Source: Bacillota bacterium
GTDB taxonomy: Bacteria > Bacillota > Dethiobacteria > DTU022
Reading direction: 5' to 3'
NCBI GenBank assembly: GCA_033549065.1
Contig: JAWSUE010000004.1
Span: 1 to 64,000, forward strand
Length of the DNA stretch: 64,000 bases
The first letter of the stretch is position 1. The number at the start of each line of letters is the position of its first letter. Shown here one piece after another: positions 202 through 5,198 of the stretch. Under the pieces are notes generated by a model that saw nothing but the letters and a program-made list of their open reading frames with translations, did not search any database and was not told where the DNA came from. The translations under genes were made by a program, and so were the position numbers.

Positions 202-231
202 TTGCTTTATACCACCTTGTTGGGTTATACT
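202..231 (+). promoter_or_regulatory. Candidate sigma-A promoter for the riboswitch leader
   Basis: TTGCTT at 202-207 and TATACT at 226-231 are separated by 18 nt. Transcription from here would start near 238 and give a leader of about 195 nt containing the whole c-di-GMP aptamer. A weaker alternative is TTGTTG (217-222) with TAGCAT (240-245). Confidence 0.35.
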
Positions 232-273: not shown

Positions 274-366
274 CCTGACGATAATGGCAAAGCTTTCGAA
301 AGGAAGCGACGCAAAGCTATGGGTCTAAGCCCTGTAAGGGTATGACTGCCAGGCTACCGAAACAGG
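274..366 (+). promoter_or_regulatory. Cyclic-di-GMP-I (GEMM-I) riboswitch aptamer
   Basis: The conserved GEMM-I blocks appear in order: GGCAAA (286-291), a 6-bp hairpin 292-297/302-307 capped by a GAAA tetraloop (298-301), the near-invariant GACGCAAAGC (308-317), a GGGTCTAAG receptor strand, a hairpin, TATGACTGCC and GGCTACCGAA. The GAAA loop and its receptor are the tertiary contact expected of the class. The aptamer's basal helix looks weak here (CCTG 274-277 with CAGG 363-366). It lies directly upstream of the M50 protease gene. Confidence 0.92.
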
Positions 367-376
367 ATTTTTGCTG

Positions 377-432
377 TACTCCTCCATTATCGTCGGATGG
401 AAATTGATTCCGTATGATGGAGGAAGCAAAAA
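377..432 (+). promoter_or_regulatory. Expression platform of the c-di-GMP riboswitch (anti-SD)
   Basis: TCCTCCAT (380-387) is perfectly complementary to ATGGAGGA (417-424), which holds the ribosome binding site of the protease gene. The segment 384-394 is also perfectly complementary over 11 bp to 277-287, which includes the GG of the aptamer's GGCAAA. The two pairings share bases 384-387, so they exclude each other. The layout indicates translational control; the sign of the response is not settled by sequence alone. Confidence 0.65.
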
Positions 433-2256: not shown

Positions 2257-4530
2257 ATGAAAACAGAACTCGAAACACTACAAAGTGACGATTCTGTGGA
2301 GTTGGAGGAAGAGGTAAGGGAGAAACGAAAAGTTCCTGTCCAACTCGGTAGATTATTAGCCAACATGAAGCCTACCAGCATAATCCGCCTCTACCGGTTG
2401 CTTTCCCTGCTGCTTTCATCAACTCTATTTTTGCTGTTCCCCGGTAACTTTGACCTGCTTTCACAGCTAAGTTTAATTCTTTTACTTACCGCCTCGGCCA
2501 TTTTATTGATCAGCCTTTATGAGCATTACTGGAACAATATAAAAGTTGTATCCTTCCTTATAATTACTGAAGTTGTTGGTATATCCTTGTTGTTAACTTA
2601 TACAGGTGGATTTCACGGCCCCTTTCTCTGGTATGCATTAAACCCCTTCATTGTTTCTACTGCCTTTTTTAGCCTGGCCTATGCTCTCTTAATACTTGGG
2701 GTATTGATTGTCGGGACTATTGGCTGGAAATACTTCCTGCTGGGGGCTTTCTTCACCCTTTCCGATATTCTAAATAATAATTACTACGCCGCGCTCAATT
2801 TAACAGTAATTGTGATCATCATGTATATGTTCGCCCGCATGCATTTAAACTTATCCGAACAGACAATGGAAAGCAAAAGCCAAAAGAGAGAACTGCTTTC
2901 TGCCTATCAGAACCTCTCTGAAAACTACCAGGTCTTTCAGAGCCTCTCAAAATTCCAGCGTGAAGTGGCAACATGTAAAAGCCAGAAAGACATCTACAAT
3001 GCTTTGATTGAGACTCTTGTTGGTTTATTCCCCTTTCGGCAGGCCGCTGTATTTATAACATTAGTAAATGAAGAAATTCCTGACAACAATGCTGTAATAA
3101 ATATTAAGATTGCATGTTCAAATTCAAATATTCGCGGTTTACAGGCAAATGTTGTTCGCAATGAATTAGAAGATCGTTGGGACGAACTATCTCATACCGG
3201 ATCAAAAAAAATGTTGATCGGTAGAAATAGAAACTTTGTTGCCGTATCGCTAAAGGGTGAGAAGAACCAGGTTTCCGCTTTATTTGTTGGCTGGTTGAAG
3301 CCAATGATCAATCCCTTATCTTTTTCGGAAAACCTTCTGTTATTCATCCGTTTTGCCGAACAAACTGCCGAATGGCTATCCATGTTCAAACAGCGCGAGA
3401 GGGTTCTGCAGCATATCTCCTCTATATACGCCGCCGTTGAAACTGTATCAAGACATAATGATCCACGTATGGTTATTGAACTTTTTGCTTCCTATGCCCG
3501 GGCGCTGACAGGTTGTGCCAAGGCAATCTTCTGGATGCAAAACGTAGGCCGTGAGGAGTATGATGAATACTATCCGATTTTTTCTGTAAAGGGACCGAAG
3601 AGCCTTTTTCCCGAAGAAGAGTGGCGGCAGCCTTTGCTTGAATCATGGGATGAGGTCTCCCAGAGTAAAAAACCGGTTATAAAGCCACTCATAAACTCAC
3701 CCTCAAATGGTGCAAGACTGATCAGCATCCCGGTGAAAACCGGTTCTCACTGTTTTGGCATGCTGGCCGGCATTCAGTTAAACAATACCTACCAGACCGA
3801 TGAGACGATTCACATCCTCAATATTTTAGCCGATCTGAGCGCCATCGCCGTGGAAAGAGCCCGTGCCGAGCAGTTTGCAGATAAGCTGCTGGTCATAGAT
3901 GAACAGAAGAGGATCGCCAATGAAATCCACGATACTATTTCACAGAATCTGTTCAGCATTGTATACAGCATCGACTCATTATCAAAAGAAACCGACGGCA
4001 TGCTTGAAGAAAAATATCATGATACCCTGGTAGACATCAAAAACCTGTCCGCCCAGACTGCCCGCGAATTGCGTTCGCTGATCTACCGTCTTAACCCGCG
4101 CCAGGAAACAAATAAGGAGTTTATTGATGAAATATCGAGCTACCTGGATAAACTGGCCAGAATGAACTCGATAAAAATTGCCAACACGGTAAACGGCAGT
4201 ACGGAATATTTAAACCCGGCCATCTGCAAGGTGCTCTACAGGATCATCAGGGAAGCAACGGGAAATGCCCTGCGGCACGGGAAATGTTCTGAAGTCATAG
4301 TACACCTTGATATAACACCTTTCAGATCAATTCTAAAAGTAAGTGATAACGGCAGAGGCTTTGATGTTCAGAGCAGCCTGGACCTTTATTCCGCCGGAAA
4401 CCGGCTGGGCCTGGTCAATATGCGTGAGTTAGCCCTTTCCCTGCAGGGTTCCCTTGACATAAAGAGCAAGCAGGGTAAAGGAACTGAAGTAACCTGTTCA
4501 ATACCGACATCACCGGTTTCAGTGGAGTAA
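2257..4530 (+). CDS. Membrane sensor histidine kinase, NarL/LiaS type (HisKA_3)
   Basis: A 757-residue sensor. About five membrane segments lie between residues 45 and 205, then a coiled-coil linker, then two regions of GAF-like character (about 210-390 and 395-545). The dimerisation domain follows, with phospho-acceptor His558 in RIANEIHDTISQNLF, and a GHKL ATPase with REATGNALRHG (N-box), DNGRGFD (G1) and GLVNMRE. This is the family that pairs with LuxR-type regulators. The partner regulator starts 32 nt downstream on the same strand, so the pair is very likely co-transcribed. The stimulus is unknown; the polytopic N-terminus with little extracytoplasmic loop suggests sensing in or at the membrane. 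Confidence 0.93.
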   Translation: MKTELETLQSDDSVELEEEVREKRKVPVQLGRLLANMKPTSIIRLYRLLSLLLSSTLFLLFPGNFDLLSQLSLILLLTASAILLISLYEHYWNNIKVVSFLIITEVVGISLLLTYTGGFHGPFLWYALNPFIVSTAFFSLAYALLILGVLIVGTIGWKYFLLGAFFTLSDILNNNYYAALNLTVIVIIMYMFARMHLNLSEQTMESKSQKRELLSAYQNLSENYQVFQSLSKFQREVATCKSQKDIYNALIETLVGLFPFRQAAVFITLVNEEIPDNNAVINIKIACSNSNIRGLQANVVRNELEDRWDELSHTGSKKMLIGRNRNFVAVSLKGEKNQVSALFVGWLKPMINPLSFSENLLLFIRFAEQTAEWLSMFKQRERVLQHISSIYAAVETVSRHNDPRMVIELFASYARALTGCAKAIFWMQNVGREEYDEYYPIFSVKGPKSLFPEEEWRQPLLESWDEVSQSKKPVIKPLINSPSNGARLISIPVKTGSHCFGMLAGIQLNNTYQTDETIHILNILADLSAIAVERARAEQFADKLLVIDEQKRIANEIHDTISQNLFSIVYSIDSLSKETDGMLEEKYHDTLVDIKNLSAQTARELRSLIYRLNPRQETNKEFIDEISSYLDKLARMNSIKIANTVNGSTEYLNPAICKVLYRIIREATGNALRHGKCSEVIVHLDITPFRSILKVSDNGRGFDVQSSLDLYSAGNRLGLVNMRELALSLQGSLDIKSKQGKGTEVTCSIPTSPVSVE

Positions 4531-4562
4531 GCCGGTGATTTAAGAGAAGGAGGGAGCATGTG

Positions 4563-5198
4563 ATGATCAAAGTAATGATGGTTGATGACCACCCCCTGGT
4601 TCGAAGAGGGATAGAGGCGGCAACCAGGTTGGAAAAAGATATGGAGCTGACAGGAAGCGCATCGAATATAAAAGAGGCATTAAAAATCATTAAAGAGCAG
4701 GAACCCGATGTAGCCCTGGTTGATTTAAGGCTGAATAATGAACATGGCCTGGGAATTGTCCGGCAGGGCAGGCAGATCTGTGATAAAACCAGGTACATCA
4801 TTCTGACTTCATACTCAACAGAAGAGGAGATACAGGCTGCAATAGCTGAAAATGTAGATGGCTACATCCTTAAAGAAGCACTTCCGGAAGAACTGATCAA
4901 CGCTGTAAGAACTGTCAGCCAGGGCAGAAAATATTTTGATCCCGTTGTAGTCCAGATGGCCATGGAAAAAGGCCGGTTCAGCAGAAAACCCGACCTCAGC
5001 GAATTAACACCCAGAGAGTTGGAAGTTCTTAAAGCACTCAGCAGAGGACTAAATAATCAATGCATAGCTGATGAGTTGTACATAAGCGAACATACTGTTA
5101 AAAAACATGTTGGTTCTATTCTTGAAAAGCTTGAATTAAATGACCGCACTCAGGCTGCACTCTATGCTGTATCGAAAGGCCTGCACCGGATTGATTAG
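4563..5198 (+). CDS. NarL/FixJ-family response regulator (REC-LuxR)
   Basis: An N-terminal receiver domain carries the acidic pair in VDDHP, phospho-acceptor Asp54 in ALVDLRL and the conserved Lys in YILKEA. A C-terminal LuxR-type helix-turn-helix follows (LTPRELEVLKALSRG, then ISEHTVKKHVGSILEKL). Length (about 211 residues) is normal. The ATG at 4563 sits best behind the AAGGAGGG site; a GTG at 4560 is the alternative. Presumed to be phosphorylated by the kinase just upstream and to activate nearby promoters. Its stop overlaps the 3' end of the convergent exported-protein gene by four bases. Confidence 0.94.
   Translation: MIKVMMVDDHPLVRRGIEAATRLEKDMELTGSASNIKEALKIIKEQEPDVALVDLRLNNEHGLGIVRQGRQICDKTRYIILTSYSTEEEIQAAIAENVDGYILKEALPEELINAVRTVSQGRKYFDPVVVQMAMEKGRFSRKPDLSELTPRELEVLKALSRGLNNQCIADELYISEHTVKKHVGSILEKLELNDRTQAALYAVSKGLHRID

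Follow-up and report, generated by a model that had tools for sequence, protein, structure and literature searches.

A c-di-GMP-I riboswitch leader with P1, a competing long helix and a Shine–Dalgarno mask as a probable translational OFF switch of an M50 protease gene

How might a c-di-GMP aptamer in an mRNA leader control a small membrane protease? The question is raised by the window, the first 64 kb (64,000 nucleotides) of contig 4 in the 2.39-Mb draft genome of a Bacillota bacterium, in which such an aptamer lies ahead of an M50 protease gene (Table 1). We propose, with a probability of about 0.75, that the leader turns translation of this protease off in response to c-di-GMP. The aptamer spans the full RF01051 model (positions 1–87) and scores 87.1 bits against a gathering cut-off of 35 bits, which bears out its assignment as GEMM-I in the initial annotation. 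Its G286 occupies model position 11, equivalent to Vc2 G20, and is the base expected for selectivity toward c-di-GMP; cGAMP riboswitch variants carry an A at this position. The G at the Vc2 G20-equivalent position is described as a selectivity factor for c-di-GMP (PMC9262584). Judged from its sequence, the aptamer at 276–361 appears to sense c-di-GMP as its putative ligand. The genome has ten RF01051 matches; for one of them (L009) the GGC subclass RF03167 is the better fit. It also has 11 GGDEF matches, so that production of c-di-GMP is to be expected. The possible promoter seen by eye upstream of the aptamer is not among the calls of a promoter scan of the window, and a similar promoter-like match, TTGCAT-17-TATACT, is present in the orthologous leader of genome G025 (L012:455-483). 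The promoter-like scan match at 258–285 was rejected as the promoter of the aptamer, because it is located inside the aptamer.

Table 1. Elements of the riboswitch leader and protease gene, in window coordinates
Feature	Positions	Strand	Details
Possible promoter	202–231	+	TTGCTT 202–207, 18 nt, TATACT 226–231; by eye
P1 5' strand, CCUG	274–277	+	Pairs with 363–366; kept in all three orthologues with aptamer
Long helix 5' strand	275–287	+	13 pairs with 384–396; includes G286 and G287 of GGCAAA
c-di-GMP-I (GEMM-I) aptamer	276–361	+	RF01051, 87.1 bits, E 7.7e-16
P1 3' strand, CAGG	363–366	+	Pairs with 274–277
Outer mask helix 5' strand	368–375	+	Pairs with 425–432; partly in MFE fold
Anti-SD strand	380–390	+	11 pairs with 414–424
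Long helix 3' strand	384–396	+	13 pairs with 275–287; 384–390 common to anti-SD
SD region (GGAGG)	414–424	+	Masked by 380–390; 11 pairs
Outer mask helix 3' strand	425–432	+	Reaches the base preceding AUG
M50 site-2-protease-like membrane protein, 116 aa	433–783	+	PF02163, PF13398

The protease carries the motifs HEAGH and NLLPLPGSDG and has a SpoIVFB-like core. Among 97 genomes of the class, a search with the protease gave four strong matches, its own included, and all four orthologues keep the HExGH and NL(L/M)PLPG(S/A)DG motifs; a profile built from them matches SpoIVFB (PDB 8vjl, E 2.9e-5) over profile positions 4–102. The HExxH and the putative second metal-ligand motif, together with the four helices of a low-confidence predicted model (mean pLDDT 67) as candidate membrane helices, place the protein among the M50 site-2 proteases. 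A search of 398 genomes across the phylum returned the window's own match alone, and a related-locus search with the protease as query gave no match. A histidine kinase and then a NarL-type regulator follow the protease (window 2257–5198) and also follow the G025 protease (L153), and a similar kind of kinase lies near the protease on the G065 contig (L156). On the minus strand, a strong terminator-like hairpin of 16 pairs (811–847) separates the protease from the minus-strand ORF 877–1932, just after the stop of the latter.

The switch consists of three competing helices and a P1. The longest is a perfect 11-bp helix between 277–287 (GACGATAATGG) and 384–394 (CCATTATCGTC), lengthened to 13 bp by U276–G395 and C275–G396; its score of 30.5 was reached in none of 5000 trials in which the sequence downstream was dinucleotide-shuffled, the best of which scored 23.5. 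The initial annotation had described this pairing as perfect and as claiming the GG of GGCAAA, and both statements hold, with G286 and G287 each paired in the 13-bp helix. P1, absent from its description of the competing helices, closes the three-helix junction, and an asymmetric interior loop lies between P1 and the ligand pocket; the CAGG of its 3' strand is present a second time inside the aptamer. Since bases 275–277 are common to P1 and the long helix and the two helices would cross, they are mutually exclusive.

The remaining two helices mask the Shine–Dalgarno (SD) region. The segment 380–387 (TCCTCCAT) is the exact complement of 417–424 (ATGGAGGA), as first annotated, and the helix grows to 11 pairs with one G–U (380–390/414–424), equalled by 20 of 5000 linker shuffles. 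It is continued by an outer helix of 8 pairs between 368–375 (UUUUUGCU) and 425–432 (AGCAAAAA), equalled by 27 of 5000 linker shuffles, so that the mask extends to the edge of the start codon. The overlap between anti-SD and long helix, placed earlier at 384–387, is real but larger, covering 384–390. The hairpin 380–424 is followed by AGCAAAAAAUG, which is not a U run, and a terminator scan of positions 1–1000 of the window found no intrinsic terminator on the plus strand; a terminator reading of this leader, with a Cd1-like intrinsic terminator before the gene, was rejected on these grounds.

The order in which these helices form was computed by growing the transcript from base 238 and taking the minimum free energy (MFE) fold at each length, with ligand energy left out. 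Along this path P1 is present to base 390, the long helix takes over at 396 and lasts to 420, and at 424 the fold shows the SD hairpin together with P1; a finer run placed the two fold switches at about 392 and 423. In full-length ensembles, P1 gives –63.0 kcal/mol versus –58.7 kcal/mol for the long helix, and the mean unpaired probability of the SD is 0.014 with P1 enforced versus 0.589 with the long helix enforced. The initial proposal that the long helix leaves the SD open without ligand is corrected in one respect: at full length the masked fold is predicted to be the more stable one even without ligand. Because the masked full-length fold is favoured in this way, the ON state would be kinetic, resting on folding order, and the mechanism would lean on that order and on translation start before the mask invades.

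The proposed sequence of events is as follows. The aptamer and P1 would be the first to fold. With c-di-GMP bound, this form would be held and the later strand 384–396 would stay free of it, so that the anti-SD and outer strands may pair with 414–424 and 425–432 and mask the SD as far as the AUG. In the absence of c-di-GMP, 384–396 would invade once made, taking the P1 5' strand and the ligand-contacting G286; the long helix would then sequester part of the anti-SD, and the SD may remain accessible for a time sufficient for ribosome loading on the protease mRNA.

The aptamer, P1, long helix and SD mask are kept in three of the four protease orthologues, namely the window, G025 (L012) and G065 (L098), and no aptamer was found in the 240 bases ahead of the fourth gene (L013, G020). 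All 39 of 39 long-helix cells are paired across the three, with one compensatory change (U–A to A–U at 285/386) and two one-sided changes. In the SD helix, U383–A421 becomes A–U in G065, and the outer helix is altered at several pairs among the orthologues. Covariation in both helices, as the initial annotation had anticipated, is seen as compensatory changes. For the long helix, the pair count of three sequences is not distinguishable from that of column shuffles (187 of 500), but slid versions pair at only 23 to 67%. The masks themselves read CUCCUCC/GGAGGA in the window, CUCCACC/GGUGGAG in G065 and CCCAUC/GAUGGG in G025, and the outer helices UUUUUGC/GCAAAAA, AUCUUGU/ACAAGAU and AUUUU/AAAAU, respectively. 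Taken alone, the anti-SD matches of G065 and G025 are not rare (equalled by 418 and 468 of 5000 shuffles). In the three-row MAFFT alignment the SD segment is misaligned for G025, and it was excluded from the counts.

An SD mask that competes with an aptamer-tied helix, as expected of a Vc2-like OFF switch, was found in the window and in weaker form in G065 and G025. The bases common to mask and long helix, read from the sequences, number 7 in the window, 5 in G025 and 2 in G065, the latter being the only bases shared by its long helix and core anti-SD. In G065 the ensembles give –54.3 kcal/mol for P1 versus –59.7 kcal/mol for the long helix, with the SD unpaired at 0.002 versus 0.253, and long helix and paired SD coexist on the MFE path from nt 193. 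In G025 the values are –86.7 versus –83.3 kcal/mol, and the change in unpaired SD is small (0.109 versus 0.208).

The same architecture was then surveyed in the family, where RF01051 matches occur in 41 of 43 genomes and sum to 227. The sample of 114 comprised all ten of the window's genome, L012, and 103 from the best-scoring matches listed. A long helix at a score of at least 20 was found for 44 of the 114 aptamers versus 58 of 5700 shuffles, for 0/114 when the search window was placed 60 bases further down and for 1/114 with reversed sequence; shuffles took the place of a mismatched-pair control, which was inflated by paralogues with common motifs. The long helix is missing in more than half of the 114, many of them other variants or the first of tandem pairs. 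Several pairs distinguish the two main versions, GACCGACAAAGG/CCUUUGUCGGUC and UGACGAUAAUGG/CCAUUAUCGUCA. The kind of base pair changes at many sites along the helix, the pocket-adjacent pair being A–U, U–A, G–C or G–U where formed, in a table that is not an independent test as the 44 helices were selected for pairing. In 48 helices chosen on positions –16 to –3 alone, a C stands opposite the ligand-contacting G in 32, versus 48 of 274 beyond the pocket (p 2e-11, overstated because the rows are related). P1 is also widespread: among the 114 aptamers, CAGG or CGGG is present in 70 of the 82 rows with CCUG, and 15 of the 32 non-CCUG rows pair as P1 at a score of at least 12, versus 8 to 12% with swapped partners, a swap test being used since shuffles of so short and G/U-rich a stretch of ten bases are uninformative. 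Tandem c-di-GMP-I aptamer pairs are frequent in the family (e.g. G065:C54:23045-23316 and G020:C24:6616-6886).

These data bear on the sign of the switch. An ON switch, in which the long helix would lengthen the P1 of the bound aptamer and c-di-GMP would hold back the anti-SD and open the SD, was raised in the initial annotation as the opposite possibility and is in our view unlikely. Pairs 277–285/386–394 would surround the aptamer with G286 left out of the pairing, and the full-length masked state is more stable without ligand, as an ON switch needs. Against this stand the conserved separate P1 adjacent to the aptamer, whose pairing would cross that of the long helix, and the frequent C opposite the ligand-contacting G, for which an outer P1 has no need; the ON alternative is disfavoured because of these two features. 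The OFF sign, favoured from the start, is thereby the better supported, since the aptamer's own P1 excludes the long helix and the ligand-contacting G tends to be paired.

It is less probable still that the c-di-GMP sensor acts mainly on transcription, by termination, or on mRNA stability, with the SD mask being secondary. The relatives lend this reading some weight. In 47 of 48 helix rows the 3' strand of the long helix has at least 2 bases in common with the 5' arm of the next hairpin, a count favoured by the hairpin search, which required a start at or before the end of that strand. Many of these hairpins are GUCCCUC/GAGGGAC and hold GGAGG, followed by U's and then AUG, so that the switching strand of relatives abuts hairpins followed by U runs. 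A U-rich tract also follows the aptamer at positions 6–16 in the family (46–70% U per position among the 114), and as it lies directly after P1, P1 and U tract together look terminator-like. In the window, however, neither a U run after the hairpin 380–424 nor a plus-strand terminator was found, as described above. In L004, L033, L042 and others, a GUCCCUC-UGAA-GAGGGAC hairpin is followed by UUUUU and AUG, and SD holder and terminator look combined. A real aptamer in a weakly regulated or decayed element, whose SD hairpin always wins, would fit the paired SD favoured without ligand in full-length ensembles, but is very improbable given that long helix and masks are kept in orthologues by compensatory changes.

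Our comparison with known systems starts from Vc2, a c-di-GMP-I riboswitch reportedly studied by Inuzuka in 2016 and 2018, the later work being said, by its title, to concern masking of a distant ribosome-binding site. The OFF reading makes the window leader a well-supported further example of known translational OFF c-di-GMP-I riboswitches of the Vc2 type, not a new kind. In Vc2 of Vibrio cholerae tfoY, a translational OFF switch, binding limits translation (PMC7371385), and P1 is key (PMC9262584). Vc2 and the window leader thus share the c-di-GMP-I aptamer and the translational OFF action, the sign in the leader being inferred, and differ in target, tfoY in the former and the M50 protease in the latter. 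Cd1 of Clostridioides difficile folds in the order aptamer, antiterminator, terminator, and its outcome is decided during transcription (PMC9262584). Both it and the proposed switch in the window are OFF and pass from aptamer to a competing anti-helix to an OFF hairpin; Cd1 acts by a terminator and its antiterminator consists of strands A and T (PMC9262584), whereas the window anti-helix consists of the P1 5' strand (P) and T and takes the ligand-contacting G. P1 is not detected in Cd1 and is present in the window. In Bc1 of Bacillus thuringiensis, the ligand draws the RBS and AUG into a stem-loop (PMC11218506), which resembles the mask proposed for the window leader; unlike that leader, Bc1 has a dual terminator with opposite effects on transcription and translation. 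Among open-licence papers, no title or abstract opening described a c-di-GMP riboswitch linked to an M50 protease, or a window-type switching strand.

Beyond the protease leaders, the same long helix occurs ahead of prepilin-like ORFs (L002, at C15:563-648 of the window's own genome, L032, L035, L105, L113 and L045). These pilin leaders hold an SD-like purine stretch (e.g. AAAGGAGGUG) with no start codon nearby, the pilin starting further down; the SD-like site is possibly mRNA-stabilising and under riboswitch control. A pattern scan of the phylum with at most 1 mismatch gave matches in 86 of 398 genomes, probably mostly by chance, and does not count as evidence here. In named genomes, a c-di-GMP-I-type aptamer was found at 7 of 16 pattern matches, with one of these (L142) called GGC subclass, and none was found at the other nine. 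Five of the seven carriers of the window-type aptamer are Syntrophomonadaceae MAGs (CSSed and T1Sed, which we take to be soda-lake sediments), and two are a Bacillota MAG.

Taken together, there is about an even chance that a lineage-wide c-di-GMP-I platform exists, in which the ligand-contacting G and the P1 5' strand are captured together by one switching strand (pocket capture), this module being plugged into SD masks, SD-holding terminator-like hairpins and pilin leaders, forming one c-di-GMP OFF regulon that includes the minimal SpoIVFB-like protease. The leader described here would connect a small intramembrane protease with c-di-GMP and presents a complete P1/anti-helix/SD-mask switch with comparative evidence in uncultured relatives of Syntrophomonadaceae. 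Furthermore, the dozens of natural variants in the family, in which the switching strand feeds an SD mask or a terminator-like hairpin, make a good set for the study of riboswitch expression-platform evolution.
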